In this document: piece after piece, positions 4,029 to 37,851 of the stretch | Numbering within the stretch: the first letter of the stretch is position 1 | Layout of the letters: every line of letters begins with the position of its first letter | Assembly (NCBI RefSeq): GCF_002964975.1 | Contig: NZ_PSZM01000001.1 | Coordinates: forward strand, 248,001-312,000 | Length of the DNA stretch: 64,000 nt | Direction: 5' to 3' | From: Apibacter adventoris | Lineage (GTDB): Bacteria; Bacteroidota; Bacteroidia; Flavobacteriales; Weeksellaceae | The notes under the pieces: generated by a model | The model's input: the letters and a program-made list of their open reading frames with translations, nothing else | What the model was told of the DNA's origin: nothing | The model's database searches: none | Position numbers and translations under genes: made by a program

Positions 4029-6230
4029 ATGTCTAAACGTTTTCAAAACATATTTTCTGAAAGTACATATTTTGTATTCAGTTTTTATTTTAGCCGCGGA
4101 TTAAGAATCGCTTTTGCAATGGTTACCCCCATTTTGGTTAGTATGTTTTTTAATCAATTGAGTATAGGTATATTAACTTCATCAGGTGCTTTAGTTGCAG
4201 GTATTGGTGATAATCCGGGTACTATAAAAATTAAATTTTATACTCAATCTGTTGCTGCCATTTTCTATTTTCTAGTTGTCTTTATTAGCCAGCTGTTATT
4301 ACCTTATACAATCGCTTTTGGTTTATGGGCTACTTTCTGTGGTTTCTTTTTCTCCATGTTTTTTATATATGGTTCCAGAGCAGTGAGTGTCGGGACATCG
4401 GCTTTATTATGTTTAGTTTATGCCTGCGGTTTTGAAAATCCATCTCTAGGAGTAAATACTCTGTTCTTTATGCTCGGAGTAATTTATTATGGAATTGTAT
4501 CACTGGGATTGTGGAGAATTCAGCCTTTTCGTGTAGCAGAGCAAAAGATTAGTGAAAATATAAAATATTTAAGTGAATATACCGGCTTAATGAAAAGTTA
4601 TTATCTTGAAAAAGCAGCTCCTAATCCTCCCAAAAAAAATAAATTTGAAGATATACAGAGCAGGCTTTTTGATAAACAAGAAAAAATTCACAGTAGTCAG
4701 GAAGATATCAGAGAAAATTTATTTAAATTACGAATAAATGCTAAAAGCTTTTCTGCTAAAGGCAGAAGAATGGCTCTCATTTTTAGTGCTTTAATAGATT
4801 TATATGAACACCTGATTTCATTAAATCTTCATGATCCTAAACTTATTTCTTCCCTTGAAAATAGTAATCTGAAAACTGATTTTTGCAGCCAACTGGATAA
4901 TATGCAAGATATACTTAATGGTATTAGTTGGTCAATAAATTTACATAAAAAAGTAACTGTTCTTATTGATTCTTCAATTTTATCTAATTTTAAAAATCAA
5001 ATTATATATTTTGAAAATACCAATATTCCCAGTGGAATTGATTTACATGTTTTAAAACATATAAGGTTAATATTTAAAACCTTTTACAGACAAGCAAAGA
5101 TTATTAAATCTTTAGTAAATGGTGAATTTGAAAAGGATAAAAGTGCCTATGAAGATTTAGATTTAAAAAAGTTTACTCAAAAATATAATTATAGTTTTTC
5201 TTCTTTTAAAGCTAATCTTAATTTAAGATCTAATATATTTAAATATGCTTTGAGAATGAGCCTTTCTATACTTTTAGCTTATATAGCTTGTGCTCTACTC
5301 CAAATTAATTATTTTTGCTGGGTATTCCTTACAATCATACTTATTTTAAAACCAGTGTATGGGAATACTAAAAATTTTGCTATAGACAGATTAAAAGGAA
5401 CTTTAACGGGAGGAATTATTACTTTATTAGTTCTGCTTATTACTCAAAATCCGTACATTATAACCTTGGTTATTACCATAAGTATTATTGGTGCTTATAG
5501 CTTTATCCCCATTAATTATAAAGTTGGGGTAGCTTTTGTAACAATTTTTGTTATTCTATTACTTTTTTTGGATCATCACAATGGAAATAACTGGACTAAT
5601 ATTTATCATCGAATCGGAGGAACCACTATAGCTATCATAATTGCTTTTATAATCAGCTTTTCCTTTCTTCCTACTTGGGAATTTAAAGTTCTTCCTATGT
5701 TAATAGGAAAACTGCTAAAATATAATTTGAAGTATTTCCAAAAAATCTCTAATAATTTACTGAACGAACATAAATTTTCTGATACAGAAATAAAACTTTC
5801 AAGAAAAGACGTTTTACTAGGTACTTCTAATTTATCCAGTGCTTTTCAAAGAGTTATTTCTGAACCTAAATTATCTAAAAATTATAAGTCTGATATTTAC
5901 AATCTTATTACTCTAATAAATTTATTATCTACCCGAATTTCTTCTTTAAGAACTTATTCTTCTCAAGTTATAGATGTTAGTGGAGATGATAAAATAATAA
6001 TTAAAAATATTGAAGAGATTCTTTATAACTGTATAGCTGTTATAAGTCAAAATTCAAATGTTATTATAACAGATTTATCTTTAAAAGAAAATGATTTTTC
6101 AAATTATAATGAATCCTTATTTTCCTATCAACTGAAAGAAATTCATTCGCTAATTTTACAGATTTATAACTACATTATAAAGTTACAAGAATTTGAAGAA
6201 TGGAAAATTTCTAACAAATATATTTCATAA
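4029..6230 (+). CDS. FUSC family (YccS/YhfK-like) membrane protein
   Basis: This 733-residue protein has two blocks of membrane helices (about 20-165 and 405-550). A cytoplasmic alpha-helical region lies between them and another follows them. This repeated TM-block/soluble-block pattern is the FUSC/YccS layout, related to aromatic-acid exporters such as AaeB. The C-terminal block contains a Gly-rich run (RLKGTLTGG) seen in the family. It follows DUF1634 by 43 bp and may be co-transcribed with the TauE/SafE gene. The substrate is unknown. Confidence 0.85.
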   Translation: MSKRFQNIFSESTYFVFSFYFSRGLRIAFAMVTPILVSMFFNQLSIGILTSSGALVAGIGDNPGTIKIKFYTQSVAAIFYFLVVFISQLLLPYTIAFGLWATFCGFFFSMFFIYGSRAVSVGTSALLCLVYACGFENPSLGVNTLFFMLGVIYYGIVSLGLWRIQPFRVAEQKISENIKYLSEYTGLMKSYYLEKAAPNPPKKNKFEDIQSRLFDKQEKIHSSQEDIRENLFKLRINAKSFSAKGRRMALIFSALIDLYEHLISLNLHDPKLISSLENSNLKTDFCSQLDNMQDILNGISWSINLHKKVTVLIDSSILSNFKNQIIYFENTNIPSGIDLHVLKHIRLIFKTFYRQAKIIKSLVNGEFEKDKSAYEDLDLKKFTQKYNYSFSSFKANLNLRSNIFKYALRMSLSILLAYIACALLQINYFCWVFLTIILILKPVYGNTKNFAIDRLKGTLTGGIITLLVLLITQNPYIITLVITISIIGAYSFIPINYKVGVAFVTIFVILLLFLDHHNGNNWTNIYHRIGGTTIAIIIAFIISFSFLPTWEFKVLPMLIGKLLKYNLKYFQKISNNLLNEHKFSDTEIKLSRKDVLLGTSNLSSAFQRVISEPKLSKNYKSDIYNLITLINLLSTRISSLRTYSSQVIDVSGDDKIIIKNIEEILYNCIAVISQNSNVIITDLSLKENDFSNYNESLFSYQLKEIHSLILQIYNYIIKLQEFEEWKISNKYIS

Positions 6231-33464: not shown

Positions 33465-33911
33465 ATGCTTGATAGTTTAGTTGAATATGGGTATTGGGGA
33501 TTATTTTTAGCCTCTTTTTTAGCTGCTACTTTTTTGCCTGTTAGTTCTGAAGCTGTTTTGGTTGGTATGTTAGCTTTAGGCGGAAATCTTTGGCTCTGTA
33601 TTGGATTAGCTACTTTGGGTAATTTTTTAGGAGGAATGACCAATTATTTTTTAGGTAAATTAGGAAAACTGGAATGGATTGAAAAATATCTTAAAATCAA
33701 ACCGGAAAAAATAAATAAAATATATCATTGGCTGGATGGTAAAGGGGCTGCTATGGCTTTTTTTTCTTTTTTGCCAATCATTGGAGATGTTATTCCTATA
33801 GCTTTAGGTTACATGAGAGCTAATATCTATATCGTAAGTATTTCTATGTTTTTAGGAAAAATGATAAGGTATATATTAATTACCTGTGGCATTGTATGGA
33901 TAATAAAATAA
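33465..33911 (+). CDS. YqaA/DedA-related (SNARE-associated) membrane protein
   Basis: This 148-residue inner-membrane protein has the VTT/DedA-type core: FLAATFLPVSSEAVLVGMLALGG near the N-terminus, then FLPIIGDVIPIALGYMRAN (about 102-120), with 4 hydrophobic segments. The length fits the short YqaA group. DedA relatives take part in lipid-carrier recycling and proton-gradient homeostasis; the role here is inferred. It is the last gene of the manA run, and it converges on the barrel gene with a 4-bp gap. Confidence 0.82.
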   Translation: MLDSLVEYGYWGLFLASFLAATFLPVSSEAVLVGMLALGGNLWLCIGLATLGNFLGGMTNYFLGKLGKLEWIEKYLKIKPEKINKIYHWLDGKGAAMAFFSFLPIIGDVIPIALGYMRANIYIVSISMFLGKMIRYILITCGIVWIIK

Positions 33912-33915
33912 AACA

Positions 33916-36537
33916 CTATAAACTGTAACTTATGCCTATACCTGCATATCCAGGAAGCTTATGATATATTTCTTTTTGTAATATATTATCATCTGTGGAA
34001 GTTTCTACAATTTCAGAACCTGAAATATTAAGAATATCATATCCTTCAATCCAAAATTTCCAAGGAGTATGTTCTTTTCTATATATTACTTTAAGTCCTA
34101 AATTATATTTATCCCTAGAAATTGAACCACTTTTATAAAACTCATAGCTATTTTTTAAACTAAATTTTAAACTTTCTCCAAAATTAAAATATAAATTAAC
34201 AAAGGGTATAATTTGTGAATTTTTTAAAGATATATCTTGATTTTTGTAATCTGTATTTAGGTAAGAAAATTTTGACCCAAAATCATAATTGACTATAGAT
34301 TTTTTATTATAAGTCTGAAAACTCACATCTCCATTAACCCTATTTGTATTCATAGGTATTTCTTGAAAATTTGTAAAAGTACTTGACTTTATAAAATTGT
34401 AGTTAACATTTATCTTCAATTTATATTTTATGAATTTCAATTTTTTTTCAAAATTGATAAATGTATTCCATATATCTTGGTTGGATGAACTAATGTAATT
34501 TAAAATTGTATACTGAGAGTTTACAGAACTATTTGTTATCGGAAAATTTGCTTTTCGGGAGTAATTTACATTTGCAGATAAAAAATTACCATCGAATAAG
34601 TTTAAAAATAAATATTCTAATCCTATTGTATTATTAATTATTTCCTTTCTTTCCTTAATAAAACTTTCTTTATATATGCTGGAGTAATTTAATAAAATTT
34701 CATAAGAATTAAGTTTATCGGCACTTATATAATCCACTTCTCTTTTATAAAACAATGCTAGTGTATGAGTTTGTTTAAACTCTAATTTTATTTTAGCCTG
34801 CGGTAAAAAAAATAATGAATTTGAACTATGTGTATTTAATTTTAAATTATAATTTCTTAACTCAAAATCTAGCAAAAACTGTAAAAAATTTTTATTTTTT
34901 AAAATCGCCGGCTTAATGAAACTATAATCGGTATGAAAGCTGATATGATTTCTAATATTATTTTCAATTATCGAATTTTTAAAGAAATTTTGCTTCCATA
35001 AGTAGCCCATACTATTTCTTACAACTATTTCCCCGATATTTTGGCTGTATTTACCTATCACTCCCCATTCTCTATCTTTTTTTGTACTATTTTGTACTAA
35101 ATTATTGATATTAAAATCATATAAAGAATGTGAAGATAAAAGAAAAAAATCTCCTTTTGAAGATTTACTTTCCTGATATATATTAAATGTTATCAGTTTA
35201 TTTTTAGCTATTTTAGATAAATAGCTAATCTGTTGGCCAAATTTCATATTTCTATTTTTCATATTTTCATTAAATAGAATTTTTTCATATGATTCTTGGC
35301 TTATTTCCCTATCTGTATGATCTTTTGTCGGTTCTATAGAAACAGAATAATTTAAAGAATTATTTTTATTGATTTCAAAATCTATTTTTACATGAGTTTG
35401 ATTAAAAAGAAAGTTCCCTTTTGAATGATTGTTATCTATGCTATGGAAATTACTATTTAAAAAAGTTCTTTCTGATAAAATTTTTTCTCTCTGCCAAGTA
35501 TTATTTAATAATGTAAATCCCGTAATTTTAATTTTCTCAGAAGGTAAATATGATAAATTTATACTTCCCATCTGGTTCTCTTTTTTTATTACATTATTAT
35601 CTGACAATAAAAAATTAGGCAAAAAATTATCCATTTCTTTAAAAGAGGAAAGTTCACTGTTCATTAAATCATTTCTTACGTCTGAATTTAATTTTAAATA
35701 ATCATCAATAGTAAAAGATACCTGTCCTGTATTATTGGCATTCCCAATAAAACTTACACTTAGATTATTAGTAAATTTAAATAGATTTAATTGAGCATTA
35801 TACTTATTTTCATACGCAGATAATAAAGAAGCCTCTCCGGTTATTTTATTTTTATATTCTTTTTTTATACCTACATTTAGAGCTGTTTGATTTCCTCCTT
35901 CTATATTTTTTGCTATTTGAGAACTTTTATAATTATTTAGAATTTCTACTGATTTAATCATCTGAGCATTTAAATTCTCTGTAGCTATTTTATGATTATT
36001 TCCAAAAAAGTCTTTTCCATCTACCAATAGCTTATCAACTTGTTTACCGTTAACTTTTATATTCCCGTTTTCAACTTCAATACCGGGTAGTTTATTTAGA
36101 ATATCTTTCAATTTCTCTTCATGCCCGTTAGTAAATGAATTTAGATTATAAGAAATTGTATCTTCTTTTGCAGTGATTGCTTTTGAAATAATAACTACTT
36201 CTTCTATCTCTTTTTCTTTAGATTCTAAAATTATATCTTTAGTAGTATAAGATTCATTAACTTGTAAAGTTTCAGATATCTTTGAATATTTTACATGACT
36301 TATTTCTAAAATATAATTCCCTTGGTTATTTACTTTAATTGAATAATTCCCTTGACTATCTGAGATAGAAAAACTTATGACTTTTTTTGTATCTGTATTT
36401 ATAAGTTGTATTGTGGCAAATGAAATCGGTTTAGCATCATTATTAGTTATTTTTCCTCTAATTATAAAATTTTCTTGCGCAAAAAGAAAACAACTTAAAA
36501 AGAAAAATAAATTTGATACTATATATTTATAAAGCAT
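33916..36537 (-). CDS. Outer-membrane beta-barrel protein with carboxypeptidase-like N-domain (TonB-receptor-like)
   Basis: This 873-residue protein has a signal peptide (1-20, LFAQ). A CarboxypepD_reg/CNA-like domain (about 24-105; IRGKITNNDAKPISFATIQL) is followed by a plug-like segment with LNKLPGIEVENGNIKVNGKQVDKLLVDGKDFFG (about 137-169). Then comes a long barrel of the OMP_b-brl_3 kind that ends in GIGISYSL. The family is related to TonB-dependent receptors and to GLPGLI-linked barrels. The 15-bp gap from the GLPGLI gene indicates one transcript. The ligand is unknown. Confidence 0.88.
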   Translation of the reverse strand: MLYKYIVSNLFFFLSCFLFAQENFIIRGKITNNDAKPISFATIQLINTDTKKVISFSISDSQGNYSIKVNNQGNYILEISHVKYSKISETLQVNESYTTKDIILESKEKEIEEVVIISKAITAKEDTISYNLNSFTNGHEEKLKDILNKLPGIEVENGNIKVNGKQVDKLLVDGKDFFGNNHKIATENLNAQMIKSVEILNNYKSSQIAKNIEGGNQTALNVGIKKEYKNKITGEASLLSAYENKYNAQLNLFKFTNNLSVSFIGNANNTGQVSFTIDDYLKLNSDVRNDLMNSELSSFKEMDNFLPNFLLSDNNVIKKENQMGSINLSYLPSEKIKITGFTLLNNTWQREKILSERTFLNSNFHSIDNNHSKGNFLFNQTHVKIDFEINKNNSLNYSVSIEPTKDHTDREISQESYEKILFNENMKNRNMKFGQQISYLSKIAKNKLITFNIYQESKSSKGDFFLLSSHSLYDFNINNLVQNSTKKDREWGVIGKYSQNIGEIVVRNSMGYLWKQNFFKNSIIENNIRNHISFHTDYSFIKPAILKNKNFLQFLLDFELRNYNLKLNTHSSNSLFFLPQAKIKLEFKQTHTLALFYKREVDYISADKLNSYEILLNYSSIYKESFIKERKEIINNTIGLEYLFLNLFDGNFLSANVNYSRKANFPITNSSVNSQYTILNYISSSNQDIWNTFINFEKKLKFIKYKLKINVNYNFIKSSTFTNFQEIPMNTNRVNGDVSFQTYNKKSIVNYDFGSKFSYLNTDYKNQDISLKNSQIIPFVNLYFNFGESLKFSLKNSYEFYKSGSISRDKYNLGLKVIYRKEHTPWKFWIEGYDILNISGSEIVETSTDDNILQKEIYHKLPGYAGIGISYSL

Positions 36538-36552
36538 TCTTTCATAGTAGCA

Positions 36553-37245
36553 TTAGTAATTATCATTGAATATTCCATTTTCTAATTCTTGTAATTTTTC
36601 TTTTTCCATATTTTGAAAATCCAATTTTTTTATTACTTTACCTTTTGTAGGTTTAGAAATGGAATAATTAGTTTTATAATTAATGGAAGTTAATTTATAG
36701 GTTAAATTTTTATATTGTAATTCTACAATAAGTCCCGGAAGCCCCCAATAATCCATTGGTCCATCGGGAATTGCTATGTCAGGAGAATACCAAGCTTCAA
36801 CTGTAGTATCATCAGAAGAAGTTATTGCTTTTTTACATAAATAAGGACCTATTTTTTTTTCTTCGTCTATAAGAACCCAATCAATTGGAAGTAATTTATC
36901 TGTAATTAAAAAATCCTTGCCGAAAAAATCAGCTTGTTTCACATATAAATTTTCTTTTTGGTCTTTGTAAGTTTGATCTGTAGCACCTACTTCTATAATT
37001 TTATTCTCACTATTATCATGTTGGTTGGTTTTTTCTTTTAAAAATAAAGATATTCCGTCTTTATAATACAAATCATATATAAATTCTTGTGCAAGAAAAG
37101 CATCCATACTTTTTATTATTTCAGAATCTGTGGTTTGTTCTTTATAATCATTAACATTAGCAAAAGCTTGGTATGTAATTTTAACAGTTTGAGACAGCAA
37201 ACCTGCATATGTAAAAAACAAAAATATATAAACAATTTTTTTCAT
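36553..37245 (-). CDS. GLPGLI family protein
   Basis: This 230-residue secreted protein has a signal peptide (MKKIVYIFLFFTYAGLLSQ). The motif that names the family appears exactly, in DYWGLPGLIVEL (about 166-177), preceded by VEAWYSPDIAIPDGP. The family is confined mostly to Bacteroidota and its function is unknown. It is thought to be periplasmic and often sits beside outer-membrane barrels, as here. A 72-residue secreted peptide gene is just upstream, separated by a terminator. Confidence 0.93.
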   Translation of the reverse strand: MKKIVYIFLFFTYAGLLSQTVKITYQAFANVNDYKEQTTDSEIIKSMDAFLAQEFIYDLYYKDGISLFLKEKTNQHDNSENKIIEVGATDQTYKDQKENLYVKQADFFGKDFLITDKLLPIDWVLIDEEKKIGPYLCKKAITSSDDTTVEAWYSPDIAIPDGPMDYWGLPGLIVELQYKNLTYKLTSINYKTNYSISKPTKGKVIKKLDFQNMEKEKLQELENGIFNDNY

Positions 37246-37275
37246 ATATAAATAATTTTAAACCAAATATTAAAA

Positions 37276-37305
37276 ACCCAATGTTAAAAATTAAAAACAT
37301 TGGGT
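37276..37305 (-). terminator. Terminator between the small peptide gene and GLPGLI gene
   Basis: A perfect 10-bp stem (ACCCAATGTT at 37276-37285 with AACATTGGGT at 37296-37305) is followed on the minus strand by a T run. It lies 18 bp after the peptide stop and before the GLPGLI gene, so it would limit read-through. Confidence 0.82.
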
Positions 37306-37323
37306 CACTACTATAAATTAATT

Positions 37324-37542
37324 TTAAAAACAAAGAAATTTATGATATAAAACTCCTTTATACCAATAAGTGCACCAATAAAAACATCTATATGTTTTTT
37401 CAGCTTCAACAGACATTTTTTTAGTTGTTGTAATTACATTGCTAGAAGGTTCAGAAACTAATGGTGTAGTTTCTGCTTTTGCAGAAGTTGAGGAAGCTAA
37501 ACCTGCAACAACGAATGCTGCGAAAAATAATAACTTTTTCAT
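37324..37542 (-). CDS. Small secreted peptide with three Cys and aromatic C-terminus
   Basis: This 72-residue protein has a clear signal peptide (1-23, ending SAKA-E with an AxA site). The mature part is a Ser/Thr-rich stretch followed by an aromatic, Cys-containing tail (YRCFYWCTYWYKG...KFLCF; three Cys). I do not recognise a family. Its own -7 promoter element and a terminator bracket it, and the GLPGLI and barrel genes come next. The signal peptide and the neighbours make it a likely real gene, possibly an exported bioactive peptide or substrate of the neighbouring proteins. Confidence 0.72.
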   Translation of the reverse strand: MKKLLFFAAFVVAGLASSTSAKAETTPLVSEPSSNVITTTKKMSVEAEKTYRCFYWCTYWYKGVLYHKFLCF

Positions 37543-37582
37543 ATGATTTAATTTATAAAAAACCTACTTTCAGAAATTTTAT

Positions 37583-37606
37583 AGCCGCTGTTTCGGTTTT
37601 CCGGCT
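37583..37606 (-). promoter_or_regulatory. GC-rich leader hairpin upstream of the small peptide gene
   Basis: AGCCG (37583-37587) and CGGCT (37602-37606) can pair around a 14-nt loop, in an unusually G/C-rich spot for this intergenic DNA. It lies in the predicted untranslated leader of the peptide mRNA, about 41 bp before the ATG. Function is not known. Confidence 0.35.
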
Positions 37607-37851
37607 TAAATAACATAAACTATACTAATATTCGCGACTACCAATATAATATTTACATTATTTTTATTACAAATATAAAAATAATATATTGACAACATGA
37701 TGTTTAACTAATATTACACCATCAATATTAATATATAATAAAATTATTTTTATGTTGAAATAAATAAACTTAATTCAAAATATTTACAGTTATTATTTAA
37801 TTATATTTACATGGAAAAAGTATAAATCTTTTCATTAATTCATTTACAATT
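37607..37851. other. Intergenic AT-rich region upstream of the small peptide gene
   Basis: Apart from the promoter element at 37670-37677, I see no gene or RNA in this stretch. The region ends at the ggt terminator. Confidence 0.5.
37670..37677 (-). promoter_or_regulatory. -7 promoter element of the small peptide gene
   Basis: TATATTTG on the minus strand fits TAnnTTTG exactly. A TTG equivalent (37693-37695) is present but with a short 15-bp spacer. The predicted leader is about 120 nt. Confidence 0.5.

Follow-up and report, generated by a model that had tools for sequence, protein, structure and literature searches.

Recurrent pairing of small secreted peptide genes with GLPGLI genes, seen from a three-gene locus of Apibacter adventoris

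What does a GLPGLI protein do when it is encoded next to a small secreted peptide? The question is raised by a locus in a 64,000-nucleotide (nt) stretch of the Apibacter adventoris genome (contig NZ_PSZM01000001.1, positions 248,001 to 312,000; hereafter the window), where a gene for a cysteine-bearing pre-peptide is followed by a gene of the GLPGLI family and by a gene for an outer-membrane barrel resembling TonB-dependent transporters (TBDTs). GLPGLI is listed in Pfam as a family of unknown function. A first-pass annotation made from the letters alone proposed that the peptide, the GLPGLI protein and the barrel are coupled, and the positions it gave for the three genes agree with the open reading frames (ORFs) and profile matches. 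Comparison with other genomes confirmed that the window trio is one example of a peptide-GLPGLI pairing that recurs in the bacterial family. In the accessible parts of the open-access literature naming GLPGLI, the family is mentioned in regulon tables and the text discussing them or in a list of annotations, and the pairing is not described in those parts.

The peptide-GLPGLI pairing across genomes

Evidence for the pairing comes from searches in both directions. In the reverse direction, a profile (A9) built from four peptides with Sec leaders was run on 148 genomes of the family, 35 with matches at E 0.001 or better. GLPGLI genes, called by a custom hidden Markov model from 27 seeds, were found downstream on the same strand in all 30 loci that were fetched. 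These 30 include the query rows (L270, L271), close copies of the query rows (L272, L273) and two loci that were already known (L283, L284), and in L279 GLPGLI ends at the contig end. Seven of them (L286, L288, L292 and L294-L297) matched in the first 38 profile positions only; therefore, the leader alone predicts a GLPGLI partner. In other words, a Sec leader of roughly MKKLLLLAAxGVAGLMSAK marks the class. A loose search with the window peptide served as background. It yielded 30 loci, three of which (L001-L003) carry GLPGLI and are the window itself, its homologue in genome G006 and an A9-type peptide, and GLPGLI was present in none of the other 27, a background that gauges the density of GLPGLI genes and not of small secreted genes as such. 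Among the A9 loci, L295 has its GLPGLI in pieces beside a shortened peptide of 42 amino acids (aa) and looks like a decaying unit.

In the forward direction, GLPGLI genes were examined for an upstream peptide by a strict rule: an ORF of 45-130 aa, at most 400 nt upstream on the same strand, with a Sec or double-glycine (GG) leader and at least two Cys after the leader. Such an ORF preceded 30 of 186 GLPGLI genes in a first set of loci, versus 12 of 700 other genes (Fisher p 7e-13) and 5 of 156 other secreted genes (p 4e-5). A second set comprised barrel-relative loci of GTDB genomes and gave 10 of 50 versus 9 of 348 (p 2e-5); four of these nine "other" positives (L199, L208, L210 and L221) resemble genuine peptides encoded ahead of a barrel or propeller. 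The 60 loci L037-L096 of the first set are a sample from top-scoring GLPGLI genes, which are mostly peptide-free, so the pairing is understated there, while L031-L036 were fetched because of peptide matches. Two doubtful positives out of the 30 (L113, L122) were kept in the Fisher counts and omitted from tree labels. The first-pass annotation had named the lack of a peptide gene beside GLPGLI loci of relatives as a refutation; such genes were found, and the coupling was not refuted.

GLPGLI lies within 500 nt downstream of 50 of 52 distinct peptides, 47 times at a distance of -19 to 95 nt. All 52 passed a leader filter; 25 were known before the profile searches, and the other 27 are the distinct peptides retained from 43 profile loci that entered the filter. 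On a 185-row tree of GLPGLI genes, the peptide-bearing members cluster, with 14 changes as compared to 28-35 in 200 shuffles. Some labels on this tree were set by hand because of non-ATG starts, few Cys or misses of the rule (L065 twice, L153, L155, L156, L032 5676, L074 and L137). A reverse search with Flavobacterium peptides in 296 genomes of the order gave two matches, one of them with GLPGLI, and is too narrow a basis for claiming spread beyond the family.

Which part of the peptide does the GLPGLI partner follow? Paralogues within G043, G047 and G143 share 18 of 20 leader residues in each case, and their cores are 27%, 21% and 23% identical, respectively. Two Flavobacterium loci share 19 of 20 leader residues and have cores 23% identical. 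When the mature part is taken to begin after residue 20, its median length over the 52 peptides is 67; it mostly contains 2-4 Cys, and its net charge is negative in 34, neutral in 13 and positive in 5. By mature part, 38 of 50 pairs fall into eight clusters and 12 are singletons. These clusters need 9 changes on the GLPGLI tree, where 7 is the least possible and 300 shuffles gave a mean of 20 and a minimum of 17; near-copies add to the agreement, and the largest cluster alone needs 5 changes. Further evidence comes from a core swap. Cores of the type C..W....CG..Y.LC.D.Y occur behind GG leaders (L073, L107, L109) as well as behind Sec leaders (L245-L248, L255), and the GLPGLI genes of these peptides form one clade of 11 with a support of 99 in the Shimodaira-Hasegawa-like approximate likelihood ratio test (SH-aLRT). 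The route through the inner membrane thus changed, and cargo and partner remained linked. As judged from these comparisons, the GLPGLI partner follows the mature peptide, not the leader or export route.

A double-glycine profile (A8) found GLPGLI in 13 of 30 loci, that is, in 8 of the 9 strongest matches (L240-L248, E 1.5e-10 or better) and in 5 of the other 21 (L253, L255, L256, L264 and L265). This count rules out that GG leaders in general are tied to GLPGLI. C39 proteins are encoded in frames of 725-756 aa in G106 and G049, both of which have GG-type peptides or leaders, and no C39 match was found in the G043 and G037 genomes, whose read loci have Sec-type peptides. The window genome has one C39 match, in a 196 aa frame away from the locus.

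The GLPGLI protein and the outer-membrane barrel

The window GLPGLI protein matches TIGR01200 with 139.1 bits (cut-off 50; E 1.9e-40), exceeds the cut-offs of PF09697 and PF22252 and carries the GLPGLI motif at residues 168-173. Its AlphaFold2 (AF2) model, made from 46 aligned sequences, has a predicted local distance difference test score (pLDDT) of 90.6. Foldseek matched this model to the N-terminal bowl domain of PNGase F-II (6e-9 to 7e-8), ependymin-related proteins (1e-4), RseB (5e-4), LolA (3e-3) and LolB (2e-2). In VIA, PNGase F-II had a Z-score of 16, VioE and a Thermus protein each had ~10, P. gingivalis LolA had 9.6, a LolA-LolB complex 9.5 and RseB 8.3-8.7. The protein is predicted, with modest scores, to belong to the Lol fold, the half-open beta bowl of the LolA/LolB/RseB type. 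Assignment to the LolA family by sequence was rejected, as no Pfam LolA match was obtained at E of 1 or lower.

Proteins of the Lol fold carry lipoproteins or bind peptides and lipids. GLPGLI has the same overall fold as LolA, LolB and RseB by AF2, Foldseek and VIA, and a periplasmic location is expected. It differs from them in the missing Pfam match, in its low identity and in its genetic link, which is to a small peptide gene, whereas the LolA and RseB systems are linked to lipoproteins or an anti-sigma factor. In both sequence and predicted fold, the window GLPGLI belongs with the GLPGLI family (TIGR01200) and the bowl domain of PNGase F-II (PF22252); it differs in scoring as a Lol-type fold and in standing alone beside a peptide gene. 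That bowl domain is called unique in structure and of unknown function in the accessible part of the structural report (PMC9522356). Some GLPGLI genes adjoin pairs of a BlaI-like repressor and a BlaR1-like M56 peptidase, as identified by Pfam in L229 and by resemblance in L049-L051, L053 and L055-L059, hinting at induction by envelope damage.

The window barrel scores above the cut-offs of PF13715 (44 bits) and PF13620 (38.6 bits). Its score for Plug (PF07715) is 16.4 bits, under the cut-off of 23.9, and a plug-like segment aligns among its relatives; there is no TonB_dep_Rec (PF00593) match at E of 1 or lower. TBDTs are mostly importers. A secretion role has a precedent in Oar of Myxococcus, a TBDT with a CarboxypepD_reg domain on which the secretion of PopC depends, according to the accessible part of the report (PMC6434023). 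The window barrel shares with Oar the CarboxypepD_reg domain, the plug-like segment and the barrel, and differs in its Plug match under cut-off and unmatched PF00593; as far as that account goes, the cargo differs as well, PopC being a protease of 50.8 kDa that has no signal peptide.

Is the barrel a part of the unit, as the first-pass annotation held? The results point both ways. GLPGLI was present in the fetched stretch of 41 of 60 loci of barrel relatives, directly upstream of the barrel in 40 of the 41, and 10 of these 41 loci (in named GTDB genomes) have a leader-Cys peptide by the strict rule. The ten come from Flavobacterium species, Flavobacteriaceae metagenome-assembled genomes (MAGs) and one Capnocytophaga MAG. 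The barrel also follows the pair in the window and in G006. On the other side, for 19 of 22 judgeable peptide-GLPGLI pairs of the family the next 1.5 kb downstream contain no ORF of barrel size, and the barrel is therefore optional. Of the other three pairs, only L031 has a checked barrel; it starts with TTG, was missed by the ORF count and was counted as present.

Other GLPGLI-barrel pairs neighbour BlaI/BlaR1-like genes or a histidine kinase gene, which is divergent in L174 (identified by Pfam) and L204 (by resemblance). In L208 (a Sphingobacteriia MAG) and L210 (Chitinophaga), a Cys peptide, a six-bladed TolB_like propeller, a redoxin-like protein (weak match), GLPGLI and a barrel stand in a row, a possible link to propeller-peptide loci. 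NVEALA peptides (PF14055) are short Cys peptides with a leader, and their partners in the envelope are six-bladed TolB_like propellers; the two rows are similar to them in combining a Cys peptide with such a propeller. The window peptide and ten relatives differ, giving no NVEALA match in Pfam. Papers on NVEALA were not found in the open-access library searched.

Possible roles of the pair

How might the peptide and the GLPGLI protein act together? One model, favoured here if only tentatively, is that GLPGLI is a periplasmic Lol-fold protein dedicated to the mature peptide, which it escorts, in the window to an Oar-like barrel as exit. The small, mostly Cys-bearing peptide would cross the inner membrane by Sec in the window and by means of a GG leader in some other genomes, in the latter case presumably via a C39 ATP-binding cassette (ABC) exporter. 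The GLPGLI protein encoded just downstream would then bind this particular mature peptide, hold it in its bowl and escort it through the periplasm. Where a CarbopepD_reg barrel comes after GLPGLI, as in the window, it would serve as the outer-membrane exit. Transport would thus be outward, and the peptide would act outside the cell. Export, maturation and uptake, the options named in the first-pass annotation, cannot be told apart by sequence. Taken further, the pairs could constitute a new Bacteroidota system of peptide export or competition, in which interchangeable secreted mini-proteins have their own Lol-fold shuttles, a switch between Sec and double-glycine leaders that leaves the shuttle in place, and an optional barrel exit; this broader proposal is rather unlikely. 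If true, it would provide the first proposed function for GLPGLI proteins and for the bowl domain of PNGase F-II. For a subset of GLPGLI proteins, the pairing supplies a testable ligand; it also links their fold to LolA/RseB and would find a place for the "unique" PNGase F-II bowl domain. Studies of mechanism or antimicrobial screening could draw on dozens of peptide-partner pairs from nature, among them one in which the export leader was swapped.

Several results weigh against the escort model. VIA Z-scores of 8-10 are modest, TM-scores to LolA are 0.36-0.49 with an identity of 4-13%, and VioE, ependymin-related proteins and the Thermus protein reach scores similar to those of LolA. Of the 185 GLPGLI genes in the tree set, a sample weighted towards top scorers, 150 have no peptide, and many GLPGLI genes lie in conserved peptide-free neighbourhoods, some of them beside BlaI/BlaR1-like genes. 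Because of this, peptide carriage is not the general role of the GLPGLI family. Leaders are not always better conserved than cores: in G106 and G049 they agree at 6-14 of 20 residues, and identities of 47-61% occur between some GG cores. No GLPGLI gene was found within 1.5 kb of L243, a strong GG-core match. C39 matches are also present in G047, G048 and G143, whose read peptides are of the Sec type, so exporter and leader type do not separate cleanly. For GG-type peptides, an exit by way of an ABC exporter and TolC that bypasses any periplasmic carrier is conceivable and would favour immunity. To these are added the absence of a barrel beside most family pairs, the failure of GG leaders in general to predict GLPGLI and the limited scope of the 27 background loci described above.

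The escort model is favoured over a bacteriocin with its immunity protein, an explanation that the first-pass annotation did not list. It fits nearly as well and is a serious contender, if a doubtful one. The peptide would harm related bacteria from outside and GLPGLI would sequester it in the periplasm, protecting the producer, while extra and orphan GLPGLI copies would protect against the peptides of neighbours. Such a role agrees with near-identical leaders ahead of unlike cores in G043, G047, G143 and Flavobacterium (in G037, leaders share 14-16 of 20 residues), with tandem units that each have their own GLPGLI genes, with a partner that follows the core and not the leader, and with the patchy count in the genus, where 3 of 9 genomes have a GLPGLI match over cut-off. 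Moreover, one GG relative (L121) reaches 24.5 bits against the leader model of a "bacteriocin-like protein" (NF047798, cut-off 23.5 bits); L073 (23.3) and L120 (16.0) stay under it, the window peptide gives no match, and Pfam bacteriocin families gave only matches under cut-off, in two GG relatives. Typical bacteriocins are cationic, whereas most mature parts here are acidic, 34 of 52 having a net negative charge; the window peptide, at +3, is different. The many GLPGLI copies in conserved, peptide-free neighbourhoods also argue against immunity as the sole role, as do the bacteroidetocins (class IIf). In the accessible part of the report on them, these have a GG leader of 15-16 aa and a 42 aa mature peptide with four Cys, encoded in a region of four genes (peptide, C39 transporter, transmembrane protein and thiol oxidoreductase); this region lacks an evident immunity protein, and producers show self-inhibition (PMC6671954). 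The likeness to bacteroidetocins and other double-glycine class II bacteriocins is that of small Cys peptides of Bacteroidota, some relatives being GG-led. Set against that account, the window peptide differs in its Sec leader, the lack of GG, three Cys and a mature part of ~49 aa, and its locus has no exporter or thiol oxidoreductase beside the peptide.

An improbable alternative is that the peptide is never released and stays in the envelope, where it would serve GLPGLI and the barrel as a subunit, lid or ligand, for instance as a sensor or regulator in the manner of RseB. RseB and MucB, both of the Lol fold, bind partner peptides (MucA-MucB complexes, VIA Z 8.5), and the neighbourhoods with BlaI/BlaR1 or histidine kinases are consistent with it, but relatives with GG leaders and the diverged mature parts point to a role directed outward, and most sampled GLPGLI genes have no peptide. 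Still less probable is uptake, in which a released peptide captures a ligand and is retrieved by the barrel and GLPGLI. The resemblance of the barrel to TBDTs and the aromatic, Cys-bearing tail of the window peptide would suit this explanation, yet most family pairs have no adjacent barrel. Finally, GLPGLI genes are numerous (present in 138 of 148 family genomes searched, with up to 40 copies in one genome), and unrelated small secreted genes might lie beside this expanded paralogue family by coincidence. Such a coincidence is scarcely credible in view of the 30 of 30 loci versus 0 of 27, the Fisher p values of 7e-13 and 2e-5 and the match between cores and tree.

The locus in the window

Table 1. 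Features of the peptide-GLPGLI-barrel locus, in window coordinates
Feature	Position	Strand	Basis
Peptide gene, 72 aa pre-peptide	37542-37324	(-)	ORF; 58% identical homologue in G006; purifying selection
Sec-type leader, residues 1-23, expected cleavage after AKA	37474..37542	(-)	Read from sequence
Residues 53-71, predicted beta-hairpin between Cys53 and Cys71	37330..37386	(-)	AF2
5' region, blocks ATATTGRTAGTCGCGAATAT, CGGAAAAnCCGAAACAGCG, CTGAAAGTAGG identical in G006	37563..37646	(-)	Sequence comparison
Terminator- or attenuator-like hairpin in the peptide/GLPGLI gap	37305-37276	(-)	Folding versus shuffles
GLPGLI family protein, 230 aa, predicted Lol-type (LolA/RseB-like) fold	37245-36553	(-)	TIGR01200, AF2
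CarbopepD_reg outer-membrane barrel with plug-like segment, TonB-receptor-like (Oar-like architecture), 873 aa	36537-33916	(-)	Pfam

The genes of the trio are separated by 78 nt (peptide to GLPGLI) and 15 nt (GLPGLI to barrel). Among 99 genomes searched, the genome of the window included, a homologue of the window peptide was found in one congener, G006 (locus L031), where peptide, GLPGLI and barrel follow in the same order. Between the two, nonsynonymous and synonymous divergence (dN/dS) amounts to 0.35/1.55 in the peptide gene, as compared to 0.41/1.80 in GLPGLI and 0.38/1.71 in the barrel gene, and silent sites are close to saturation. Because the values for the peptide resemble those of its two neighbours, the peptide ORF is judged a real gene and not a chance ORF. 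Within the peptide, dN is slowest in the leader (0.17), as compared to 0.60 in the linker and 0.29 in the tail. A third trio is present in G048 (Flavobacteriaceae bacterium Ap0902).

By manual reading of the sequence, and not by a signal-peptide program, the leader is of the Sec type and ends in TSAKA, followed by ET. The three-Cys tail noted in the first-pass annotation holds for the window, with Cys53, Cys57 and Cys71, and only in part beyond it: Cys53 and Cys71 are conserved and Cys57 is Tyr in G006. The AF2 model of the peptide, which rests on a two-row alignment and is weak over residues 1-32, has strands at 53-61 and 64-71 (pLDDT 84-90 in these blocks, 66.8 overall), and Cys53 and Cys71 could close the predicted hairpin. 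The peptide of the G048 trio has a hairpin-looking tail without Cys; therefore, a disulfide may be optional in these peptides. A PDB sequence search with tails of 22-24 aa gave no match for the window and four chance-level matches for G006. No search supported a likeness of the tail to arenicin, an antimicrobial peptide of the lugworm. Three peptide genes of G048 (L065 at ~4700 and ~5960 (-), L153 at ~5695 (-)) have ATA in place of the ATG of relatives, each in the context TAA AAC ATA AAA, representing a rare start codon or lost starts.

A terminator had been proposed between the peptide and GLPGLI genes. A hairpin does fold at this site (-14.6 kcal/mol, z -3.4, 1 of 200 shuffles equally good), but a terminator scan allowing loops of 3-8 did not list it, its loop being 10. 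The corresponding gap in G006 has a different hairpin (-23.8, z -5.5). The window hairpin is the sole basis for the earlier suggestion that the peptide is made in excess. Promoter-like sites near the window peptide were no more frequent than expected by chance. In the 5' region, the middle block CGGAAAAnCCGAAACAGCG occurs once each in G000 and G006 and in none of 7 other genus genomes, and two inverted repeats, TCGCGA and CGGAAAAnCCG, suggest an operator or a structured leader upstream of the peptide. The 5' element alone folds weakly (z 0.1 and -1.1), and Rfam gave no match in the window, L031 or the 5' region. Because matching blocks occur in two genomes only and the folding signal is small, an RNA switch is not claimed.

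By Pfam, the genes around and within the locus encode a VTT protein, the barrel, GLPGLI and a gamma-glutamyltransferase. In G002, G003, G007 and G008, the VTT gene and a FUSC-like gene are neighbours, without the trio (Pfam-checked for G002 only), and in G006 the trio separates these two genes. No VTT match was found in G001 and G004, and the G005 locus has no FUSC-like neighbour. From these neighbourhoods, gain and loss of the trio as a cassette look the same. In the window, the FUSC-like gene, recognised by its likeness to L031 and L236, and the VTT gene, at 4029-6230 and 33465-33911, are 27 kb apart, a separation that reflects a rearrangement near the trio.

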